This document shows, piece by piece, positions 1,903 through 26,185 of a DNA stretch of 32,525 bases. Numbering within the stretch: the first letter of the stretch is position 1; each line of letters begins with the position of its first letter. The notes beneath the pieces are model-generated. The model made no database searches, had not been told where the DNA came from, and saw nothing but the letters and a program-made list of their open reading frames with translations. The stretch is from assembly GCA_020072925.1 (NCBI GenBank), contig JAIQGA010000015.1, positions 1 through 32,525 of the forward strand, read 5' to 3'. Source of the DNA: Terriglobia bacterium (GTDB taxonomy: Bacteria > Acidobacteriota > Terriglobia > UBA7540). The position numbers were made by a program, and so were the translations under genes.

Positions 1903-3123
1903 ATGCCTAATCCGGTCCAAAGTCCGAAACCCGGCTCATTGTTTTGGCGCCTCTGGTGGCGCGCGCTCTCCGTCAAGCGGCCGCAGGCCGTGCTGGCGTT
2001 GGGGTCGTTGCTGGTAGGCGCGGCGGTGGCTTCGCTGCTGCTCAATCTTTACAGCGACGCGCGCCGCAAAATGACTCAGGAATTCCGCGCTTACGGGGCC
2101 AACGTCGTTCTTGCACCACGCGCCCAAGCTGCTGCCGGCATCGAGCCCCCCGCGGCCACCATCGACGAACGTTCGCTAGCGCCGCTCCGGACTTTCGCCG
2201 CGCAAACGCCGGGCCTGTTTTACGCGCCGATTCTCTACAGCGTAGTGCGCGTGGCGCGCGCCGATGCGGATTCACCCGCCTTCCAGAACGCCGTGGCTGC
2301 AGGAACGGATTTTCCGGCGCTACGGCGGATCCATAGCGGCTGGCGCGGCACCCCGGCGCCGGGACAGAGCGGCGCCGACTACCCTGCGGGTCACGAATGC
2401 GCCCTGGGCGCGCACCTGGCGGAGCGCCTGAGCGTGCGCGCCGGAGGCTCCGTGGCGCTCGCGCCGATGGATATCACGTCGCCCGCGCCCGTAACCTTTC
2501 GGGTGATTGACCTCCTTAGCGCTGGGACCGCGGAGGACGATCAGGTGTTTCTGCCCACAGCGGGCCTTCAATCGCTTGTCGGCATGCGGGGGAAGATTAG
2601 CTTGGTGCAAGTCAGCATTCCCGGTGAAACCGCCGAGATTGAGCGCGCTGTGGGAGAGCTGGCACGCCTGCTTCCGGGCCTTGACGTGCGTCCCGTTCGG
2701 CAGATTGTTTACTCCGAAGGGAAGGTGCTGGGCACCATTCGCTGGCTGTTGCTGTCGCTGACCGCCCTGATTCTGGTAATCATTGCGCTTTGCGTTGTGG
2801 CGACAATGACGGCAATTGTCACGGAGCGCCGCAGGGACATTGCGGTAATGAAAGCGCTGGGGGCGACGGATGCGGCCATCGCGCGGCTCTTCCTCGCGGA
2901 GGGCGCGGGCCTGGGTCTGGTCGGTGGGGCACTTGGATTCGCGCTGGGGAGTTGGCTTGCCGCGAATATTCTGCGGCGGCTGTTCGGCGTATCGCTCCGC
3001 CTCCACTTCTGGACTTTTCCGGAAGTGTGCGGCTTGACGACGTTGTTGGCTGTGGTGGCCACATTTCTCGTGGTCAGAATCGTGCGCACCATCCAGCCTG
3101 CTGTAGCGCTCAAGGTTGAATAG
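1903..3123 (+). CDS. FtsX/MacB-like ABC transporter permease 2
   Basis: This is a 406-residue permease with the same plan as its upstream neighbour: a membrane segment near residues 30-50, a long extracytoplasmic domain starting RRKMTQEFRAYGANVVLAPR, and three C-terminal membrane segments with the conserved loop ERRRDIAVMKALGATDAAIARLF split between them. Both permeases share an EFRAYGAN/ELRSFGAN motif after the first membrane segment, as expected for a heterodimer. No clear Shine-Dalgarno lies before ATG 1903; the leader is the stutter-repeat hairpin, and another ATG occurs at 1898 in a different frame. It is followed after 80 bases by the ATPase gene. The role is the second half of the putative iron-linked ABC unit. 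Confidence 0.85.
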   Translation: MPNPVQSPKPGSLFWRLWWRALSVKRPQAVLALGSLLVGAAVASLLLNLYSDARRKMTQEFRAYGANVVLAPRAQAAAGIEPPAATIDERSLAPLRTFAAQTPGLFYAPILYSVVRVARADADSPAFQNAVAAGTDFPALRRIHSGWRGTPAPGQSGADYPAGHECALGAHLAERLSVRAGGSVALAPMDITSPAPVTFRVIDLLSAGTAEDDQVFLPTAGLQSLVGMRGKISLVQVSIPGETAEIERAVGELARLLPGLDVRPVRQIVYSEGKVLGTIRWLLLSLTALILVIIALCVVATMTAIVTERRRDIAVMKALGATDAAIARLFLAEGAGLGLVGGALGFALGSWLAANILRRLFGVSLRLHFWTFPEVCGLTTLLAVVATFLVVRIVRTIQPAVALKVE

Positions 3124-3165
3124 TCGCGGCTGCCTTGGGGCGAATCGGGCAGTGAAGATGGAGAT

Positions 3166-3183
3166 GCCGGCCTGAAGGCCGGC
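3166..3183. repeat. short palindrome GCCGGCC-TGAA-GGCCGGC
   Basis: A perfect 7-bp stem with a TGAA loop lies 20 bases before the TTG start of the ATPase gene. It belongs to the class of short palindromes scattered in this genome (compare 7305-7320 and 12847-12861). There is no T-tract, so it is not a convincing terminator. Confidence 0.6.
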
Positions 3184-3203
3184 GCAACGGGGAGAATCAG
3201 CAG

Positions 3204-4277
3204 TTGTCCTTCATCGAAGTTGACACGCTCACGAAGAAATACGGCGACTCCATCCACGCGCTGGACCGAGTTTCCTTCACGGTCGAGAAGGGCGAATGGA
3301 TCGCAGTGATGGGTCCGTCGGGCTCCGGCAAGAGCACGCTGCTGAACATTCTAGGCTGTCTCGACTCTGTCACGGAAGGGCGCGTCGTTGTGGACGGGCA
3401 GGAACTCTCGGGCCTCAGCGCGCGGGACCTGGCGCGGTTCCGCGCGGAGAAGATCGGATTCGTTTTCCAGCAATTTCACCTCGTGCCTTACCTCACCGCG
3501 GTCGAAAATGTGATGCTCGCACAGTACTTCCACAGCCTGGCGGATGAGGCGGAAGCCGCGGAAGCGCTGCGCCGCGTGGGGCTGGGCGACCGGCTGGGCC
3601 ATTTGCCCTCGCAGCTCTCCGGAGGCGAGCAGCAGCGTGTGTGCGTGGCCCGCGCGCTCATCAATCAGCCCAACTTGATTCTCGCCGACGAGCCCACGGG
3701 CAACCTCGATGAGGTCAATGAGGCCATCGTCATGGGCCTGATGAGCGAATTGCATCGCGAAGGCCACACCATCGTCATAGTGACGCACGACCCCGAAATT
3801 GGACGCATGGCCGAGCGGCGCATCGAGCTGCACCACGGCCGGCTCAGTGAAGTCTCGGTCTTTCCCACCTACGAAGAGGAACTGATTGACAACCTCCTCA
3901 AGGCTGTCTGGCACGCGCAGGAACACGTGGGCAAGGAGGTGGTGCCCATCGAATCGCTGCCGGAGTTTCTGCCCAACCGCGCCACGTTCCTGCTGATGGC
4001 CCAGGAGGAGCTGGTGGACCTGGAAGGTGAGACCCTGGCTTTCACATCGCGCGGCGAAGCGCGGGGGCGCGAAGTGCTGCGGCGCCATCGCCTCTCCGAG
4101 CGGCTGTTCTACGATACCTTCGGCCTCGATAAAGATTTGCTTGATGAGCACGCCTGCAAAATCGAGCACACGCTGAGCCCCGAGGTTACGGAGAAGATCT
4201 GCATCTTCCTGAAGCACCCGCTGACCTGCCCACACGGTTCTCCTATCCCCCGCGGCGCCTGCTGCCCGGCGCGCTGA
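3204..4277 (+). CDS. ABC transporter ATPase fused to a DtxR/IdeR-like metal-sensor domain
   Basis: This is a 357-residue two-part protein. Residues 1-215 are a LolD/MacB-type ATPase: Walker A GPSGSGKST (37-45), Q-loop near 89-90, signature LSGGEQQ (138-144), Walker B LILADEPT (158-165), D-loop NLDE and switch His 195. Residues about 222-350 align by eye with the DtxR family: a winged-helix-like part, then VLRRHRLSER (His295, Glu299), the ligand triad CKIEH (Cys318, Glu321, His322) and the family ending HPLTCPHGSPIP. The HTH part looks about four residues shorter than usual and may not bind DNA. The start is TTG with GGGGAG about 9 bases upstream; no better start exists before the ATPase fold. 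It ends the iron operon. The likely role is to power the two permeases, with Fe(II)/Mn(II) sensing built in; a regulator role is also possible. Confidence 0.85.
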   Translation: MSFIEVDTLTKKYGDSIHALDRVSFTVEKGEWIAVMGPSGSGKSTLLNILGCLDSVTEGRVVVDGQELSGLSARDLARFRAEKIGFVFQQFHLVPYLTAVENVMLAQYFHSLADEAEAAEALRRVGLGDRLGHLPSQLSGGEQQRVCVARALINQPNLILADEPTGNLDEVNEAIVMGLMSELHREGHTIVIVTHDPEIGRMAERRIELHHGRLSEVSVFPTYEEELIDNLLKAVWHAQEHVGKEVVPIESLPEFLPNRATFLLMAQEELVDLEGETLAFTSRGEARGREVLRRHRLSERLFYDTFGLDKDLLDEHACKIEHTLSPEVTEKICIFLKHPLTCPHGSPIPRGACCPAR

Positions 4278-17098: not shown

Positions 17099-20000
17099 CT
17101 ACAGCACTGTGACGGTAACCGTCACCGTGTGCGTGAGGGTCCCGCTCGTGCCGGTCACCGTAACGGAATACGTGCCCGCGGGTGTGCCGGGATTGTGAGT
17201 TACTCCGCCACCGCCTCCTCCTCCGCAAGCGACGAATCCAGCCGCCATCAGAAGCAAGGCAAGTAACCCGATTGTCATCGCTAGGCGGCGTTTCCTTGCC
17301 ACAGCCAGCAGGAAGAGGAGAAATCCCGCGAGAACCGCAGGCCCCACGAACCATCGAGGCATCGAGAAGGGGGGCGGGGCCGAAGTGGGCGCCGCGGTAG
17401 TGACAGTGAGCGTAGTAGAGCCACTAGTCGTTACGGAGGTTGGGCTCATGGAGCAAGCGGCCGCCGTCATGGCGAACGGAACGGCGCACGTGAAGGTGAC
17501 CGAGCCCGTGAATCCGTTGCTGGCGGCCAGCGTGATCTTCGAGGTGGCGGATTGGCCAGGCGACAAGCTCGTGATGCTGGTGGGATCGGCGGATAGAGTA
17601 AAGTCGGGAGGCACGTTGACGGTGACCGGCGCGGAGGTAGAGCCCACGTAGTTGGTATCACCGTTGTACTGGGCCGTGACCTGCGCGGTGCTTGAGAAGG
17701 TTGTGGTGAGGCTTGCCTGGCAAGTCGCAAAGGCGGTGAATGAGCCCGCCGTGCCCGAGCAACTCACCGGGCTTCCCGCGATAGCGGTTCCGGAGTTCGT
17801 GAACTGTACCGTGCCGGTGGGAGCCACTCCGCTGCTCTGCGTATTGACCACGGCCGTAAGAGTGACCTGTGTGCCCGCCGAGGCCGTGGAGGGGCTGGCC
17901 GAAAGGCTGGTCGTGGTCGTGGCAGCCGTGATGGTAATGGCATTCGTGGGCGAAGTGCTTGGGTTATAGCTACTGTCGCCGCCGTATGCGGCGACCACGT
18001 TGTTCGTGCCCACCGGGAACTGCACGTAGATGTCCTCGAGATAACCCGAGCTGTTCAACTTGTAGCTTCCCGCGGTGTATCCGGGCGGCGAGCCCTGCTC
18101 GGGAATCGGCTGGCCATTGTTGGTTACCGTCACCGTTCCGGTTGGACAAGGATAGAGGAGCAACCCTGTCGTGTGCGAATAGCACGTGTTACCCGAACTG
18201 TTGGTGACGTCCGAGCGCAGGACGTACGGAGATCCGTAGGCAGCCGTCGTGGAGACAATCGCGTTTCCGAAGGCATCGAAAGTGACCATGGCGATGTTTG
18301 TCGAGCTGGGCTCCGGGCTGACCGTGACGGCGGTGGGGCCCGAATCACTCGCGCCGAAAGTTCCGTCGCCAGCGTAGTGCGCCGTCACGTTGTAGGAGCC
18401 GCCGGGCAGCATGTTGGTTGTGGAACTGACGCCGCCGCTGGTCAGGGTAAAGCCGGTAATGCCGAGTTTCGAGGTCGGGCCGCCCATAAGGGAAACAGCC
18501 CCCGTTGGTGTGCCGGAGGTCGAAGTTACTCCGATGGTTACATTCACCAATTGGCCGTGGGTGAGGGTGGTCGGAGAGAGGGTCAATGAAGTCGTGGTAG
18601 CCGCGAAGCTGACGGAACTCCACTTGTTCACCAGGTTCGCGGCGTTGACGGAGCCCAGCCCGGTCGCGAGGTCGTACCCGGCGGTGGTTGGGAAGGCGGG
18701 CGTGGGACTGGCGCTCCCGGGATTCACCACCAGGATGCCAAAGCCGCCGGAGGTGGTTTTGCTGCAATTGGGTGAGCCCCCCTGGCAGGCTACGGAAATG
18801 TTGCCCTTCACCGTGTCGTAGAAAACGCAGGCTGAACCGCTGGCGTTGGGAGCCATGGTGGCGTTCGACGCGCAACTCGCGCCACTCTGCGCGGCGAGCT
18901 TATAGAGAACGTAGTTGGCATTCCCCTGGCGCGCGCCGGTTTTCTGATTGACCAGCGCCATGATGCCTGCAAAAGCGGGCGTCGCGAAGGAGGTCCCACC
19001 CGCGCCCTGGAAGTTCGTATAAGGAGAATTGAGATTGCAGGATGTGCTCGTGCCTGTGTTGGCATCCGCCTCACAAAAAATGTAAAAGCTCGTCGCCAAG
19101 CCGGAGAAAAGCGAAACATCGGGGAGGTCGCGCACGGAATCATTCGGGACGCCGGAACCAGTCTGCCAGGCCGGTTTGGGATATCCCGCGCCGCAGGTGC
19201 TCGACAGGGCGCAGTTGCTGGCCCCGCCACCGCCCGCGGCGAGGTCTATGCCGGTCGGCGAGACTGTCGCGCAGCCACTCGTCGACCCGCTTGCCGCGCA
19301 AGTGTCGTTCCAGGTGCTCTCGGGGATGTAAGACTTCGCGGAGGATTGGGTGGTGGAATTATTCGTGGAATTCCAATAAGTGCTCTGCGTGGAGGCATCG
19401 TCGAAATCCGTCCCACCGACGGCGACATTGAACGGCGTCGACGCAAGACCACTTACGGCCAGTCCATTCGCAGCCGCCGTTTGGCCCGGGAGCCCGTCGC
19501 ATCCCGCAGAGCCGCTGTCGCCCGCAGCGATGAGGACGGTGATCCCCTGAGCCGCGGCCTGCTCCCAGAGAGTGCCATAGAAGGCGTTTCCCGCAGCGCC
19601 CAGGAATGCTTCGCAGGTTCCGTAACTCTCGCTCAAGATGGGGGCGAGGTTGTTGTCAACGACGTAAAGCGCGGAGAGGTCGATGCCTGCCGTGGTTTCG
19701 GTGGACTCAGAAACCACCAGATCGATGGTCGCATTCCTGGCCACCGCCCCTGCCCACTGGACGTCGAGGTCCGCTTCACCTTCGTCCGAGGTGAGGATCC
19801 CTGGATCCGGTCCATCCAGGATGATCTGCGGGTCGTTTGCCGGCAGGCCGAACATCGTGCGGAAGTCGCGCACGTCCTGGATGTTGATATTCGTCTGGGC
19901 GGAGACGGCGATGGTCTGCCCGGTGCCGTCGATTCCGGAATTCCAAAGCGGCAGCACGTTGTAAATGGTGGCAAAGTCGCCTGGCCCCACAGCGAAGTTG

Positions 20001-20698
20001 GGGCTACCGCCAGTGGTGAAAGTAAACAGCGGTGTGACTTCTCCGGTCGCCTTCGAACGCATGAAGGTCCCCAACTCGTGGTGCTGCGGCTTGCGCGGAA
20101 AATTATTCAGGGAAGCAACGCCCGCCACCACCGGCGCCACGGCAGCAGGGATTTGTGGATCACTCGCGTTGGCCCAACGCTGCTCGCCATTGACGACATA
20201 CTTGTGGATTTCCGTGTGCAGGGCCTGCCGCACCAGTCCGGCTGTTCCGGAAAACTCGATGACGGTGCGGCCTGCGGCCACCCGGTTGACCTGAAATCCC
20301 TGGCCGGCTAGCCAGTCGGTGACCGCTTGAATATCGGTGTCCGCCGGCCCAAACTGCTGGCCGAATTCCTCCGGCGTGACCCATTTGTGATAGTTCGGCG
20401 AGGACTTGATCTGCTGTTCGTCGAGCAATTTCCGCAATGCGGCTTCCTGTTCGGGCGAGCGCTGCAGCACAAGCAACATGCGAGGCGCGGGCAGGTCATC
20501 GGGCGCGGCGCCACGATCGTAGGCAGCACGTGCCAGGGGATGTGTGTTCCCGCGAAGCGTGACGAGTTTCTGCAGATCGACTGCCTGCGTGACGCGGGCG
20601 CGAACTTCGCGCACTTGCGTGAGAGCATCCCGAGAGGAGAAAAGCGCCAAGAGGATTACAAGCGCAGTTTGCACGGCTCGTGAGCCTGAGAGTCGCAT
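17099..20698 (-). CDS. sedolisin (S53) protease with Ig-like repeats and C-terminal membrane anchor
   Basis: 1199 residues from ATG 20698, which has GGAGG just upstream. In order: signal segment (about 8-28), pro-kumamolisin activation domain (about 35-190), S53 catalytic domain (about 230-690), three or more Ig-like repeats (about 695-1100; GTPTGAVSLMG, GTVQFTNSGTAIAG, YAGDGTF/YGGDSSY/YNGDTNY motifs), and a membrane segment (WFVGPAVLAGFLLFLLAVA) followed by RKRR. The end is a second hydrophobic stretch, a Gly run and a Thr/Val-rich tail. Catalytic residues are intact: Glu308 and Asp312 (SDEGEADLDVQW), oxyanion Asp394 (AAGDSGSAGC) and Ser570 (GGTSFATP). The calcium-site sequence YDLATGLGSVN follows. 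The likely role is degradation of outside protein in acid conditions, as known for the family. It is an independent gene. Confidence 0.9.
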   Translation of the reverse strand: MRLSGSRAVQTALVILLALFSSRDALTQVREVRARVTQAVDLQKLVTLRGNTHPLARAAYDRGAAPDDLPAPRMLLVLQRSPEQEAALRKLLDEQQIKSSPNYHKWVTPEEFGQQFGPADTDIQAVTDWLAGQGFQVNRVAAGRTVIEFSGTAGLVRQALHTEIHKYVVNGEQRWANASDPQIPAAVAPVVAGVASLNNFPRKPQHHELGTFMRSKATGEVTPLFTFTTGGSPNFAVGPGDFATIYNVLPLWNSGIDGTGQTIAVSAQTNINIQDVRDFRTMFGLPANDPQIILDGPDPGILTSDEGEADLDVQWAGAVARNATIDLVVSESTETTAGIDLSALYVVDNNLAPILSESYGTCEAFLGAAGNAFYGTLWEQAAAQGITVLIAAGDSGSAGCDGLPGQTAAANGLAVSGLASTPFNVAVGGTDFDDASTQSTYWNSTNNSTTQSSAKSYIPESTWNDTCAASGSTSGCATVSPTGIDLAAGGGGASNCALSSTCGAGYPKPAWQTGSGVPNDSVRDLPDVSLFSGLATSFYIFCEADANTGTSTSCNLNSPYTNFQGAGGTSFATPAFAGIMALVNQKTGARQGNANYVLYKLAAQSGASCASNATMAPNASGSACVFYDTVKGNISVACQGGSPNCSKTTSGGFGILVVNPGSASPTPAFPTTAGYDLATGLGSVNAANLVNKWSSVSFAATTTSLTLSPTTLTHGQLVNVTIGVTSTSGTPTGAVSLMGGPTSKLGITGFTLTSGGVSSTTNMLPGGSYNVTAHYAGDGTFGASDSGPTAVTVSPEPSSTNIAMVTFDAFGNAIVSTTAAYGSPYVLRSDVTNSSGNTCYSHTTGLLLYPCPTGTVTVTNNGQPIPEQGSPPGYTAGSYKLNSSGYLEDIYVQFPVGTNNVVAAYGGDSSYNPSTSPTNAITITAATTTTSLSASPSTASAGTQVTLTAVVNTQSSGVAPTGTVQFTNSGTAIAGSPVSCSGTAGSFTAFATCQASLTTTFSSTAQVTAQYNGDTNYVGSTSAPVTVNVPPDFTLSADPTSITSLSPGQSATSKITLAASNGFTGSVTFTCAVPFAMTAAACSMSPTSVTTSGSTTLTVTTAAPTSAPPPFSMPRWFVGPAVLAGFLLFLLAVARKRRLAMTIGLLALLLMAAGFVACGGGGGGGVTHNPGTPAGTYSVTVTGTSGTLTHTVTVTVTVL

Positions 20699-21093
20699 GC
20701 CGCCTCCGACCACAAGTTCGATTTCCAGGAATTACGTCCTTAATCGCGAGAACCAGACCAACCCGCCAGGGTTATCGGCGGTAATTCCGCACAGGAATCT
20801 CGGATATTTGTCAGTTTACACCCCCCTGCCCGCTTTGGAAATGCCTCAACCCGTCAACCGTCTGCGGGGATTCCTGCAGGTCGGCGTTGGCGCGGGTTAG
20901 GAAGGGGTTCCTTTCGACAGAATCCAGATGCCGGACAACTTATTGTGATGCGGGAGGGAAGAGCGGCGATGTCTTGAAGGCGACGGCCGGACGGGTTTTG
21001 CATTCAATTTACAGTAGCAGTCCTGAGAATAGCATAGTGGCAATTCTACTGGACAGCAGTCGGCTCAAAATCTCCAGGTCCGGTGGCAGGCGA
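20699..21093. other. 395-base intergenic region upstream of the sedolisin gene
   Basis: The region lies between the Toast-rack-like lipoprotein gene and the sedolisin gene, both on the minus strand. I found no reading frame worth calling, no repeat array of the kind seen elsewhere, and no convincing promoter or riboswitch. The weak inverted repeat CCGCC...GGCGG at about 20762-20780 is the only structure noted. It probably contains the sedolisin promoter. Confidence 0.5.
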
Positions 21094-21828
21094 TCAGACT
21101 CCGGAAGGGGGCCCGCCGAGTTCAAGGTTGATTTCTCCGACGCCCCCTTCGACTTCCACGCGAACGGTCACGGGAGATTTCCCATATCGGTCGTTCACGT
21201 AGGCGTCGCCCTGCTTCATCAGGTCGTGGGCGTTGATGGCGCCGATTCCGCCGCGCGCGATGACGTGCACTCCCACGTCGCGAGGCAGCTTGATGGTGGC
21301 CTTGCCCACGCCTCCGTGGATGCGGGCTACAACGTCGTTTTTGTAATCGCCGGTCAGGTCTACGAGGCTCTCGCCGGCGCCAACCTGGACATCCAGGCTG
21401 TTTAGCGAAAGTGAGGCCAGATTGAGTTCCGTGCGTCCTGCGCCTTGCTCCACGCTGATGCTCATTGGAACCTTGTCGCTGAAGTGCAGATCCCAGGAGT
21501 AATGCACGTTGTGCCCGCCTGACCCACTGCCGGAAGGCTGCTCAATCGTGAGCGTGCCTTGGCTGCCGGAGACCGTGTAGTCCACATGGGGCTTTGCCCG
21601 GTCGACGTTGTAGCTAAATTCGGCGTCCAGCAGATTCGGCGCGCTGCCATCTATCTTCAACTCGCCTGCACCCATATTTAGTTTGACGTCGACGGACTTG
21701 GCGTCGCCCAGCTTGACCGTTTGAGACTCGGTACGTAGCGGGCCCGTGGGCCCGTTGAAGTTGGTGCAGGCTGCCGCAGCCAGCGCCAGCACTGCCCCCA
21801 CGCTCAGCTTGGTGATCCACTTGTCCAT
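21094..21828 (-). CDS. Toast-rack / LiaF-like adhesin-type lipoprotein
   Basis: 244 residues from ATG 21828, which has a strong GGGGGAAG ribosome site; the frame is open further upstream but the extra part is not protein-like. A lipoprotein signal ends at Cys21 (VLALAAAACTN). The rest is a repeating beta pattern: DAKSVDVKLNMGAGELKIDGSA, VEQGAGRTELNLASLSLNSLDVQVGAGESLVDLTGDYKND, GGVGKATIKLPRDVGVHVIARGGIGAI, VEVEGGVGEINLELGG. These right-handed beta-helix-like GAGE/GGVG turns are typical of Toast_rack/DUF4097/LiaF-C proteins. The role is unknown, perhaps envelope stress or surface structure. It lies downstream of the RNase E/G gene but separated by repeats. Confidence 0.8.
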   Translation of the reverse strand: MDKWITKLSVGAVLALAAAACTNFNGPTGPLRTESQTVKLGDAKSVDVKLNMGAGELKIDGSAPNLLDAEFSYNVDRAKPHVDYTVSGSQGTLTIEQPSGSGSGGHNVHYSWDLHFSDKVPMSISVEQGAGRTELNLASLSLNSLDVQVGAGESLVDLTGDYKNDVVARIHGGVGKATIKLPRDVGVHVIARGGIGAINAHDLMKQGDAYVNDRYGKSPVTVRVEVEGGVGEINLELGGPPSGV

Positions 21829-22007
21829 GTGCTTCCCCCCAGACAGGTTTACGCATAACGGGCATGCGAAGTTCCGCCTGGCAGGCTTGCTGGGGCTGAT
21901 GGCAGGGTAGCTGGGCACGATGTCTTGCTCGAAGCGGGAGACCGGTTCCCTCGAGAGAAGGAGGGTTGTCAGTCGGGAGGCAAGTGCCCACCCTCCCCTC
22001 AATTCCA

Positions 22008-22078
22008 AATCCAGGATTCAAGATTCAAGGTCAAAATTGAAAACCCAATCCAAAATCCAAAATCGAAAATCTAAAATA
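22008..22078. repeat. CCAAAAT-type stutter repeat ending the RNase E/G gene
   Basis: Units such as GATTCAA, CCAAAAT and CGAAAAT of 7-8 bases run from about 22008 to 22078. They supply the TAG stop (22073-22071) of the RNase gene. The type resembles the short tandem repeats known from filamentous cyanobacteria. Confidence 0.7.
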
Positions 22079-24761
22079 TCTCAAACCGTTCCTGGTGGAT
22101 GTTCGGGTCGCTCTTGATGATGACGTCTTTCTTGGTGAGCGACTCGAGTTCGGTAACCAGGACGCCCTCGCGCGACTTGAGCGCCTTGGCGACCTCCGGA
22201 TTCACGCGCAGGGTGAGGGAGTCGCCCTCGATCTGGCGCGCCATCTTCTTGGCTTCCGCCAGGATTTCGTTGCAGACGGTGTGGACGGACTTGATCCAAC
22301 CCGACCCCGTGCAGTAGTTGCACGGCTCGCAGAGGGTCCGCTCGAGCGACTGCTTGACGCGCTTGCGGGTGATCGCCACGAGGCCGAAATCGTGGAAGGA
22401 GATGACCTTGGTGGGCGCGCGATCGTGGCGCAGGGCCTCTTCGAGCGCTTGCACGACCTTGGCGCGGTTCTTACGCTCGTCCATGTCGATGAAATCGATC
22501 ACGATGATCCCGCCCAGGTCGCGCAAACGGATTTGGCGGACGATCTCGTTGACCGCGTCGATGTTGGTCTTGACGATGGTATCTTCGAGGCGGTTCGTCT
22601 TACCCACGAACTTGCCCGTGTTCACGTCCACGGCCACGAGCGCTTCGGTCTGGTTGATGACAATGTATCCGCCGGACCTCAGCCACACCTTGGGCTTCAG
22701 GGCTTTTTCAATCTCCGATTGCACGCCGAATTCCTCGAACAGCGGCGTGTTGCGCGTATAGAGTTTCACCTTGTCGACCAGCGAAGGCTGGCTGCGGCTG
22801 ACGAAATCGAGCACACGTTCGTAGTCGATTTCGTTATCCACGCGGATGGACTTGAAATCCGGCGTGAGCGTATCGCGCAGCAGGCGCTGGACAAGGTCCA
22901 GATCGCGGTGAATCATTGCCGGAGCTCGGGTGCGGTCGGCCTTGGCGCGAATGTCGCTCCACAGCGTGGAGAGGAATTTCAGGTCGGCCTTGAACTCTTC
23001 GGCCGACCGGCCTTCCCCCGCAGTCCTGACAATGAACCCACCCGTCAGCGAGCCTTTGTTTTCCAGGATGATATTGCGCAGGCGCAGGCGTTCCTCCTCG
23101 GAGGCGATCTTGCGTGAGACGCCGATGTGAACGATGGTGGGCATGTAAACCAGGTAGCGGCCCGGCAAGGCGATGTGCGAGGTGATGCGCGCGCCCTTGG
23201 TGCCCAGAGGCTCCTTGGCGATCTGGACCAGAATCTCCTGGCCCTCCTTGAGCAATTCGGAGATTTGCAGGGGCTGGTTGTTTCCAGGACGCGACGTGGG
23301 CTCGCGCCGGCCCTCCGGACGCTGGTGGCCCATGCCGCGACGCCCGCGGCGGCGACGAGGCGCAAAACGCGGCCGCTGGTGCGGCTCGCGCAAAGTATAG
23401 GTCCGTTCGCCGGGCCCGCTCGAAGCATCCGGCGACGATGCTGGAACGGTCGTGGATTGCGCCGGCGCTTCCTCCGTGGCTGCCGGAGGCTGGGGAGTGG
23501 CAACACCCTCCGGGGTTGCGGTAGCTTCGCTGACGGGTTCCCCGGAAGGTTCCTCCGTGCTGGCTGGCTCGGCATTGGGAATGGCCTCGGAGACCAAAGG
23601 CTCCGCTGAAGCCGGAGAATATTCAGTGATTGTTGGGAGCGGTTCGATGACCGAAGGCGCCGTCGTGGCATCCAGCGAGGGCGATTCTGTAGGAGCGCTC
23701 GGCTCAGCCACCAGGTCTTGCGGTGCAACCGGCGTCACTTCGAGCGCTGGAGCAGCATCCTCAAGTTCGGCCTGGACCTGAATAACCGGCGGCTCTGCCG
23801 TAGCGGGGGATTCGTTTGCCTCCGGCGTTGCCGCCATCGCCACAGCAAAGCTGGTCGGAGGGATTACCTCGGAACTGGCTGTGGGAGCAGACTCCGTAGA
23901 AGGAGGTTCGTTCGGAACCTCAGGCACGGATTCTGACGCGAGACTTGGCGCCGCGGTGGCTTCGCTCCCTTCACCCGCTTGAGCCTCAGCAGAAGGGGCC
24001 TCGGAGGCGACTATCGGTTCGATCGGTGAGGCGTTTTCAGGTTCCGCGGTTATCTCCGAGGGCGGCGTCGCGGATGTCTCAGCCTCCGGGGTCGCGTGGC
24101 TATACTTCGCCAAGGACTCTCCCGGCAGAATCTCAAAGGATGCATTTGCCGGAGCCTCTGGGCGAGGCGTGAAACGGTGCTCGCGTTCACGGTCGCGGTC
24201 TCGATCCCGATCACCAAAGCCGCCGCGTCCCCGCCGATGTCGCCGACGGGCTCGTGGATCGAAGCGCCGGTATTCGCGGGACTCCTGAGGGGGCGCAGTC
24301 CCTTGTTCGGGGGGTGCGGTGGGGCCAGGGGCGGGAGTAGGAACTTCGTTGGGTCGGGCTTCCGCAACAGGGGGTGGGAGCGGAGGAGCAGGCTCGGCAC
24401 TCGCTGGCGGCGCGACCGCAGACTCCGTCGGCTTTGGAGGTTCGGCGACTGCAACAGCGACGGGATTCTCCGCCGTATATTTCGTCGCACGCGCCTCAGC
24501 TTCCTCGAAGACCTTGTCGTACTCTTCCTGGTCCTCAAAGAAGAAATCCGAGACATAGAGAAACGCATCGCGCTCCAGACCTATATCGACGAAGGCTGAC
24601 TGCATGCCGGGCAGCACGCGATTCACCCGGCCTTTGTAAATCCCGCCGACCAGGCCAACATCGGTATCCCGTTCGTAGTAAACTTCCACCAGTTGATCGT
24701 CTTCCAACACTGCGACCTTCGTCTCATGAGGAGACGAGGAAATAAACATCTCCTTGGCCAT
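22071..24761 (-). CDS. ribonuclease E/G family endoribonuclease with a ~410-residue disordered insertion
   Basis: 896 residues; an RNase G without insertion has about 490. It cuts single-stranded RNA for rRNA maturation and mRNA decay. The core is split. The first S1 part is 1-75 (YKGRVNRVLPGMQSAFVDIG) and the rest of S1, the RNase H-like part and the DNase I-like part run from about 497 to 896. Catalytic metal ligands are Asp712 (VDVNTG) and Asp756 (VIDFIDM). The Zn-link cysteines are Cys811 and Cys814 (CEPC). Residues about 80-495 are a low-complexity Pro/Ala/Glu/Ser insertion with Arg-rich patches (about 161-200, with RDRDRDRDRERE, and about 463-492), which may bind RNA. ATG 24761 has AAGGAG seven bases upstream. 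It is near rodA and mrdA, an order common in this phylum. Confidence 0.93.
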   Translation of the reverse strand: MAKEMFISSSPHETKVAVLEDDQLVEVYYERDTDVGLVGGIYKGRVNRVLPGMQSAFVDIGLERDAFLYVSDFFFEDQEEYDKVFEEAEARATKYTAENPVAVAVAEPPKPTESAVAPPASAEPAPPLPPPVAEARPNEVPTPAPGPTAPPEQGTAPPQESREYRRFDPRARRRHRRGRGGFGDRDRDRDREREHRFTPRPEAPANASFEILPGESLAKYSHATPEAETSATPPSEITAEPENASPIEPIVASEAPSAEAQAGEGSEATAAPSLASESVPEVPNEPPSTESAPTASSEVIPPTSFAVAMAATPEANESPATAEPPVIQVQAELEDAAPALEVTPVAPQDLVAEPSAPTESPSLDATTAPSVIEPLPTITEYSPASAEPLVSEAIPNAEPASTEEPSGEPVSEATATPEGVATPQPPAATEEAPAQSTTVPASSPDASSGPGERTYTLREPHQRPRFAPRRRRGRRGMGHQRPEGRREPTSRPGNNQPLQISELLKEGQEILVQIAKEPLGTKGARITSHIALPGRYLVYMPTIVHIGVSRKIASEEERLRLRNIILENKGSLTGGFIVRTAGEGRSAEEFKADLKFLSTLWSDIRAKADRTRAPAMIHRDLDLVQRLLRDTLTPDFKSIRVDNEIDYERVLDFVSRSQPSLVDKVKLYTRNTPLFEEFGVQSEIEKALKPKVWLRSGGYIVINQTEALVAVDVNTGKFVGKTNRLEDTIVKTNIDAVNEIVRQIRLRDLGGIIVIDFIDMDERKNRAKVVQALEEALRHDRAPTKVISFHDFGLVAITRKRVKQSLERTLCEPCNYCTGSGWIKSVHTVCNEILAEAKKMARQIEGDSLTLRVNPEVAKALKSREGVLVTELESLTKKDVIIKSDPNIHQERFEIF

Positions 24762-25096
24762 GGAAACTCCTTTGTCAGGAGGAACCCGGGGAACCCTCTC
24801 GCTTCATGGGGATCAACCCTCGGTGCTCCCGGCCCGGACCTGCTGTGAATGCTCGGCAGTGGTCAGTAATCAGTCGTCAAAGAGGCTTAGCCTTCGATGG
24901 ACTGAGAACCCAAGACTGCCTCACTTCGTCAGCGTTCCGGGGCTCGATCTCAGGTGGTATTCGCGACCAATCGTGGTGCAAGGCCGTCCGGACCCACCTT
25001 GTCCGTGTGAACCGCGCAATAGACGCCGGCTCACAGGCTGGGGAGTGTGCCGATGTCAGGCGCATGCTCCTCTCGCGCCCAACACAAAGACCGCGC
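24762..25096. other. 335-base leader upstream of the RNase E/G gene
   Basis: The region lies between the rodA stop and the RNase start. It holds a short CAGTGGTCAGTAATCAGT stutter at about 24855-24880 and no reading frame I would call. A long 5' leader would fit autoregulation of RNase E known in other bacteria, but no specific structure was identified here. Confidence 0.45.
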
Positions 25097-26185
25097 TCAA
25101 TTGATAAAACGTCTGGACCTCACGCTCATTGCCAAGCCCAGGCCGAGAAAAGCAAAGAGCAGTGCCGACCCGCCTTGGCTCATGAACGGTAAGGGAATGC
25201 CAGTCACTGGGAAGAGCCCAATCATCATCCCAGTGTTGATGGCAACCTGGAAAAACAGTACGGCTGCAAACCCGACCAGCAAAAAGGCACCGGCACGATC
25301 GGCTGCCATTTGGGCTCCGTCCAACAGGCGCAAGAGCAACGCGAAATAGAGAAGCAGGACGAATAGCGTGCCGACGAATCCTTGTTCTTCGGCGAAGGCG
25401 GCAAATATGGAGTCGGCGTGGGAAACTGGGATGAAACCCAGCCGACTCTGCGTTCCGTTCCCAATGCCCTTTCCCCAAAGGCCGCCCGAGCCGATAGCAA
25501 TCTTGGTTTGGGTAACCTGGTAGCTGGAACCTTGCGTATCCTGGGTAGGATTCACGTAGGTCAAAAGCCTGTCGCGCTGATAAGGCCGCAGGAAATGCCA
25601 CCCGACGGGTAAAGCCAACAGACCCGCCAGAACCAGCACCGCCACTCGCGGCCAACGGATTCCCGCCAGAAAAACTCCCGCGGCGGCGATCGGCACAAAT
25701 GTCAGCGCTGTCCCCAAATCGGGTTCCAGTGCCACTAAGGCTGCCGGCAGGCCAGCCAGGACCCCCAGCTTGGCCAAATCACCCCAAGTGACGGTTCGAC
25801 TTCCCCGCTCGGCGAAGTACGCCGCCACTGCCAGTATTATAACCAACTTGACGATTTCTGACACTTGGAAAGTCATGCTGCCTAAGTGTAGCCAGCGCCG
25901 GGTATTGGCATGGGACCGCCCTCCAACCAGCAAGCCCACCAAAGCCAGGACGCAAACCCCGTAAAGCCAAGGGGTCTGCTCCAGCAGGATATGGTAGTCG
26001 ATCCGGCTGACCACAAGCGCCAAAACCAGGCTCAGGATCAGCCAGTAGATTTGTTTTTTGTATTGGCCGGCCAAGGCGGTGTGAGCGGTCGTGCTGTAGA
26101 TCTCTACCACGCCGATAATTGCGATTCCCAGGGCCAGCATCAAGAGCAGCCAGTCAATATCCCGTAAGCTGAACGATTTTTGCAT
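25097..26185 (-). CDS. rodA: RodA/FtsW-family peptidoglycan glycosyltransferase (elongation)
   Basis: 362 residues with about ten membrane segments, as usual for SEDS proteins. It polymerises lipid II into glycan chains together with PBP2 during side-wall growth. Family signatures include ARRWLHLG-type text (NTRRWLHLGSMTFQVSEIVKL), EPDLGTAL, GLWGKGIGNGTQ, FIPVSHADSIFAAFAEEQGFVG and the final GIPLPFMSQGGSALLF. ATG 26185 is chosen; a TTG at 26194 (nearer the upstream stop) is possible. It begins 15 bases after the PBP2 stop, so the two are one operon. The mreBCD genes are not in the window. Confidence 0.93.
   Translation of the reverse strand: MQKSFSLRDIDWLLLMLALGIAIIGVVEIYSTTAHTALAGQYKKQIYWLILSLVLALVVSRIDYHILLEQTPWLYGVCVLALVGLLVGGRSHANTRRWLHLGSMTFQVSEIVKLVIILAVAAYFAERGSRTVTWGDLAKLGVLAGLPAALVALEPDLGTALTFVPIAAAGVFLAGIRWPRVAVLVLAGLLALPVGWHFLRPYQRDRLLTYVNPTQDTQGSSYQVTQTKIAIGSGGLWGKGIGNGTQSRLGFIPVSHADSIFAAFAEEQGFVGTLFVLLLYFALLLRLLDGAQMAADRAGAFLLVGFAAVLFFQVAINTGMMIGLFPVTGIPLPFMSQGGSALLFAFLGLGLAMSVRSRRFIN

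Follow-up and report, generated by a model that had tools for sequence, protein, structure and literature searches.

RNase E scaffolds have been studied mainly as the C-terminal tails of the enzyme in Pseudomonadota. In Pseudomonas aeruginosa, the available part of one report describes Arg-rich motifs of RNase E that bind RNA and an NDPR motif that binds PNPase; the formation of foci in this organism depends on the RNA-binding motifs in that tail (PMC11964227). In E. coli, PNPase is held by two repeated motifs of the RNase E tail, according to the section of the source at hand (PMC12489471). Inserts within the S1 domain are also on record, and the accessible text on alphaproteobacterial and plant RNase E puts them at ~50–150 amino acids, charged, predicted to be disordered and highly diverse; one helix from the Caulobacter insert occupies the predicted RNA-binding site, where its acidic residues may mimic RNA, and the activity of Arabidopsis RNase E is lower after removal of the insert (PMC4245959). 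For the Fibrobacteres/Acidobacteria group, a length of 511 amino acids is given for RNase E/G in the excerpt available (PMC3071783). In the literature listings searched, work on either enzyme in Acidobacteria included no account of a long S1 insert of the kind described here, or of an arm carrying a motif.

The window (the whole 32,525-nucleotide stretch of DNA that was analysed) harbours a single Rne/Rng ribonuclease gene, the sole RNase_E_G match in the 6.5 Mb source genome, with the following features:

22071..24761, minus strand: Rne/Rng ribonuclease gene, 896 aa, ATG start (open reading frame and profile matches)
24528..24761, minus strand: N-terminal part and first half of S1, aa 1–78 (counterpart of residues 9–79 in the E. 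coli RNase E chain; S1-half alignment)
23277..24527, minus strand: predicted disordered insert in an S1 loop, aa 79–495, 417 aa (alignments, AlphaFold2, composition, absence of Pfam matches)
24471..24536, minus strand: acidic segment where the insert begins, aa 76–97 (AlphaFold2 helix of middling confidence, block means 53–68)
24171..24269, minus strand: first Arg-rich patch, aa 165–197, N-terminal of motif A (composition)
24102..24128, minus strand: motif A, LPGESLAKY, aa 212–220 (conservation across class inserts)
23397..24086, minus strand: acidic linker rich in Ala, Glu, Pro and Ser, aa 226–455, net charge -39 (composition)
23271..23375, minus strand: second Arg-rich patch, aa 463–497, directly before S1 resumes (composition)
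23172..23276, minus strand: second half of S1, aa 496–530 (alignment to E. coli RNase E; S1-half alignment)
22356..23168, minus strand: RNase_E_G catalytic region, aa 532–802 (Pfam, E 1.3e-100)
22077..22325, minus strand: RNase_E_G_Thio region, aa 813–895, where the protein ends (Pfam)

The protein belongs to the Rne/Rng family by its scores against TIGR00757 (483.1 bits; cut-off 325.95) and PF10150 (336.7 bits; cut-off 25.5), and falls outside the E. coli-type RNase G equivalog NF008689 (505.5 bits, below the cut-off of 594). Residues 9–79 and 94–436 of the E. coli RNase E chain 2bx2_L align to amino acids 3–72 and 496–839, and a structure search with the AlphaFold2 model placed E. coli RNase E at the top, with Caulobacter RNase E (4OXP) also among the matches. 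D712, N714, D756, D759, R579, T580, C814 and C817 are invariant in a 64-row alignment of relatives; by their roles in E. coli we take these to be the catalytic and 5'-sensor residues and the Zn-link cysteines, and since the three motifs are unchanged in 64 relatives, the 896 amino acid RNase E/G is probably an active enzyme. There is almost no C-terminal tail that could serve as a scaffold: among 100 proteins of the window's class the excess has a median of 1 amino acid and a maximum of 2. Apparent N-terminal extensions in three loci (L166, L167 and L185; 368–594 residues without a Met) were taken as open non-coding frame.

The gene is preceded by rodA and mrdA. A regulatory leader is known for E. 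coli rne, and the 335 bases that separate rodA from the RNase gene (24762–25096) would be a place to look for one; no Rfam match was found in 21500–25400 at E 0.1. Elsewhere in the window, positions 17099–20713 encode a 1204 amino acid pro-kumamolisin-like protein with Big_3_5 Ig-like repeats.

The first-pass annotation had described an RNase E/G with an insertion of ~410 residues inside its S1 domain, and this was confirmed: the 417 residues at amino acids 79–495 split S1 at a loop that spans 10 residues in the E. coli RNase E and 17 in its RNase G, by comparison with ~420 here. RNase E of Methylobacterium and Pseudorhodobacter has 238 and 149 residues at the same alignment column; the window insert therefore exceeds the reported ~50–150 amino acids, a range that is itself descriptive given the Methylobacterium value. 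The RNase E of S. meliloti pSymB was left out of this argument on position, its N-terminal half being without alignment. The pSymB of S. meliloti Ak57 (L234, match at 2201–3391) has an RNase E-like frame for which no gene is listed.

The insert is dominated by Pro (17.7%), Ala (16.5%) and Glu (13.9%), matches no Pfam family at E 1 and is, for the most part, unalignable across relatives. The expectation of disorder was borne out by AlphaFold2, in which the enzyme core is modelled well and nearly all of the insert has a pLDDT below 50 (amino acids 99–209, 221–232, 234–484 and 488–494). Between amino acids 99 and 484 a pLDDT above 50 is reached only at residues 210–220, where motif A lies, and at residue 233. 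The gain at the motif is slight and may reflect no more than its conservation in the alignment. In a second, poor model (L053; pTM 0.32) the first motif copy (residues 219–228) was above 50, as were further stretches of the insert, and the second copy was below. A 31 amino acid stretch containing the motif resembled no solved structure at E 10.

The nearest named relatives of this RNase are Acidobacteriota, many of them Terriglobia, and the inserts of the window's clade were compared as a class set of 100 distinct sequences (from 102), 321–862 amino acids long with a median of 484. A search for conserved short motifs across relatives had been suggested in the first pass, and one was found: LPGE[ST][LI]x[KR][YFH] (motif A) occurs in strict form in 97 of the 100 and in a loose form in all of them, by comparison with 0 of 20,000 shuffled inserts for the strict form, although the pattern was written after viewing the sequences, as were those of motifs B and C below, and the rows are related despite wide sequence diversity, so that the counts are not independent events. 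The three inserts lacking the strict form carry degenerate versions: LPGESLANY (L024), LPGEFIAKY (L020) and LPGETLALH (L155). Sister species were thus found to retain both insert and motif; absence of the insertion, or an unrelated one with no conserved motif, was not the outcome. V, I or L usually precedes motif A directly and Pro is frequent at -3, with little else conserved around it. In a count of reduced-alphabet words, LPGES was present in 99/100 inserts and the next non-overlapping word, FRGRR, in 55/100, against a shuffle maximum of 20. The 97 strict motifs are written in 96 different DNA spellings, which indicates selection on the protein and not on a DNA or RNA element.

Class placement was independent of the motif for 80 of the 100 inserts (46 Terriglobia by NCBI name and 34 by a kinship code that ties them to the genome, family, order or class of the window), all 80 of which have loose motif A; the remaining 20 have no class name. 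Seven loci (L086, L104, L105 and L108–L111) were set aside as belonging to other classes after their lack of motif A had been seen, and they fall among the other-class rows in both trees of the catalytic part. A further 22 loci of L001–L111 and L142–L199 were left out because the N-terminal half was missing, the insert was a repeat or there was no RNase (L156). Among the later-fetched loci L142–L159, motif A was present in 16/16 distinct class inserts.

Around the motif the class inserts follow a common plan, shared by the window: an acidic start, an Arg-rich patch, motif A, an acidic linker and a second Arg-rich patch, after which S1 resumes. Over its first 14 residues the insert has a net charge of -3 or lower in 92/100 class sequences versus 28% of shuffles, and the same holds for 31/43 inserts from other classes. 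The Arg-rich patches noticed in the first pass lie at amino acids 165–197 and 463–497 and proved to be conserved in class inserts. A 25-residue window with at least 9 K/R precedes the motif in 98/100 inserts (a count made without a shuffle control); the last 90 residues contain such a window in 92/100, versus 59/5000 shuffles, and just 11/100 have one mid-insert. A second motif-like copy, by a looser pattern, is present in 43/100 inserts at a spacing of 44–81 amino acids (median 50), and the strict pattern occurs at least twice in 28/100. By eye, a looser acidic block resembling PG..LEEE.I.EEE was seen mid-insert in L045, L048, L052, L060, L091 and other Terriglobales; words related to it rank high in the word count, and the block is absent from the window insert.

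Motif A was also looked for outside the RNase gene. A degenerate DNA pattern matched 25 of 27 class genomes, and all 26 matches lay 0.9–1.7 kb 5' of the RNase catalytic domain; the two class genomes that it missed hold the variants LPGESLSRY (L152, G228) and LPGEFIAKY (L020, G040). Only 1 of 220 Acidobacteriota genomes from other classes was matched (G108, two matches on contigs other than that of the RNase), and a reversed-pattern control gave one match among the 247 genomes. A narrower DNA pattern, in which a pair of Leu codons was lacking at position 6, matched 30 of 41 genomes with 30/31 matches on the RNase contig; the genome of the window was among the 11 that it missed. The sole class match outside the RNase gene in the pattern scans was in a Ser/Thr kinase (L156), which was considered as a second motif A protein and judged to be chance. 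None of six spellings of the motif A peptide occurred in the literature searched.

In other classes of the phylum the same loop is highly variable, from 7 to 546 amino acids across 60 loci. In 40 of these other-class loci it has 7–15 residues in 10, 21–50 in 10 and 84–508 in 20, shares that are not a census as many were chosen for long frames. Motif A was absent from all 43 distinct inserts of at least 60 amino acids from outside the class. Two other motifs were found in these: motif B (F/Y/L-E/Q/K-R-[IVL]-x-[DE]-[DEHS]; in short, FER[IV]xDD) in 20/43, with 41 copies versus 0.19 in shuffles; and motif C ([IVL][LM]Pxx[LFIM]; in short, ILPxxL) in 13/43, with 22 copies versus 0.86 in shuffles. 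Class inserts have motif B in 0/100 and motif C in 2/100, near the shuffle level. Motif B was present in 12/12 later-fetched loci (L201–L212), which had been picked from families in which it was already seen or from long frames.

A tree of the catalytic part, built without the insert, placed the motif A rows (29) on one side of a branch with support 97 and the motif B rows (20) with support 99; in a larger tree all 100 motif A rows were separated with support 98 and the 20 motif B rows with 99, all of these values being SH-aLRT only, from quick searches with midpoint rooting in which long branches were flagged. On these enzyme-core trees motifs A and B each require one change and motif C two. 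In the smaller tree all inserts of at least 113 amino acids lie beyond one branch (support 95), with one 84 amino acid insert outside it; in the larger, simpler-model tree of all rows, short inserts need three changes and long motif-free inserts five, and we therefore make no claim that the loop grew only once. A distant subgroup of other-class RNase E/G (L160, L161, L168, L171, L177, L178, L190, L191, L197 and L198) has an S1 loop of 7–15 amino acids and 82–108 residues past the aligned end, and several of its genomes have two RNase E/G matches. Another short-loop RNase E/G (L172 in G128, minus strand) has an Arg-rich and then acidic N-terminal stretch, which begins at a Met ~100 residues before the family start and might represent a scaffold at the opposite terminus.

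On sequence grounds we consider, at somewhat better than even chances, that the insert is an internal degradosome scaffold in which the Arg-rich patches hold RNA and motif A docks one conserved partner; a conserved short motif within a disordered part of the enzyme, as expected of such a scaffold, is present, its loose form being common to every class insert. The scaffold would be a long disordered arm that leaves the enzyme from the S1 loop and not from a tail. With an Arg-rich patch towards either end, the arm most likely keeps RNA close to the active site, and LPGES[LI]xKY most likely folds upon binding a single conserved partner protein, tethering it to the RNase; in that part of the class with duplicated copies ~50 residues apart, the second copy would add avidity. 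The leading candidate for the partner is PNPase, since it is present in all of the genomes checked (over the cut-off in 13/13) and is bound in E. coli through two similar motifs on a disordered chain of RNase E. RNase J would come next (over the cut-off in 12/13 genomes; RNase Y in 1/13). The one genome of the 13 with RNase Y and without RNase J is G008, of the window's family, which may be a mixed or incomplete bin. 

The main rival, by analogy with what part of the Caulobacter insert does, is self-docking: the arm, or motif A within it, would bend back to the core of the RNase itself instead of binding another protein, and would gate its RNA-binding cleft or 5' sensor. The possible RNA mimicry by acidic residues of the Caulobacter helix in the predicted RNA-binding site (PMC4245959, as far as its accessible text goes) is paralleled by the acidic start of class and other-class inserts alike, and confinement of motif A to the RNase gene in the scans is what a self-docking motif would give. 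We nevertheless regard this as unlikely: AlphaFold2 gave no confident structure for the motif although the core was well modelled; the distance between motif and core varies and part of the class has duplicate copies, which fits less well with a single fitted contact; and the same core is common to classes that lack motif A.

Rather less probable again is that the arm mainly gives multivalency and reach, with RNase bodies arising from its Arg patches and acidic linkers and the motif serving as a minor site of localisation or modification. The Arg patches, blocks of opposite charge and low complexity are in keeping with a condensate driver or spacer, as is the dependence of P. aeruginosa foci on RNA-binding motifs of the RNase E tail (PMC11964227, in the part available). 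Position 5 of the motif, a possible site of modification, is S or T in the 97 strict forms, although this follows from the definition of the pattern and L020, with LPGEFIAKY, has Phe in place of Ser; nor would nine residues kept over the class be expected of a mere spacer. That a length-tolerant S1 loop simply grew a functionless low-complexity insert, as a by-product of G+C-rich drift, would suit the wide range of lengths (321–862 amino acids within the class and 7–546 outside it) and an arm that mostly cannot be aligned, but is very improbable given that motif A is kept as protein and not as DNA spelling, that the Arg patches are placed non-randomly, that other clades keep different motifs in the same loop, and that a recent horizontal copy of motif A, which would revive this explanation, is disfavoured by a tree label that changes once.

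More broadly, and with a little less than even confidence, the Acidobacteriota may have a degradosome of their own with its scaffold in the S1 loop, in which clade-specific docking motifs (A, B and C) rewired the partners and left the catalytic core unchanged; as the arm departs from the RNA-binding domain, the binding of partners could in that case directly control substrate entry. Three motif sets in one loop would then offer a test case for partner change by a hub enzyme, and a single nine-residue peptide would be a direct handle on RNA decay in a phylum that is abundant in soil.

The window enzyme can be set against several known systems. After the insert and at its C-terminal end, its core is RNase G-like in length; E. 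coli RNase G differs in having a 17-residue loop at the insert site, and the window protein scores below the RNase G model cut-off. The C-terminal region of gammaproteobacterial RNase E is likewise disordered and Arg-rich, with partner-binding motifs gained in clades and an AEPV-rich part; that scaffold follows the catalytic domain whereas the window's lies inside S1, where the microdomains named in the available part of that account were not identified (PMC4435900). The paired PNPase motifs of E. coli RNase E, as far as the text at hand describes them, resemble the doubled motif A of the window's class (PMC12489471). The P. aeruginosa scaffold (AR1, AR4, REER repeats and NDPR) also places Arg-rich motifs in a disordered region; it is C-terminal, its motif sequences differ from those of the window, and, in the part of the report available, its binding of RNA, RhlB and PNPase was tested experimentally, whereas binding of RNA and a partner is a proposal for the window arm (PMC11964227). 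The first-pass contrast between an internal scaffold here and the C-terminal one of E. coli holds in that the insert is internal and the tail almost missing, although an internal arm is not without precedent, as alphaproteobacteria and plants have shorter ones. The interpretation given in the first pass is thus supported in part, while recruitment of partners, RNA binding and condensates stay at the level of proposals. The inserts of alphaproteobacterial and plant RNase E (Caulobacter crescentus, PDB 4OXP, included) are the closest in kind, with the same family, the same S1 loop, predicted disorder and charge; by comparison, the arm of the window's class is 321–862 amino acids long, has a class-wide motif and comes without a C-terminal scaffold, and the accessible text on those inserts mentions no shared motif (PMC4245959). 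S1-loop inserts as such were therefore already known; what looks new, against the literature searched, is the content of this one, a long internal arm with a motif kept across the class and with different motifs in neighbouring clades.
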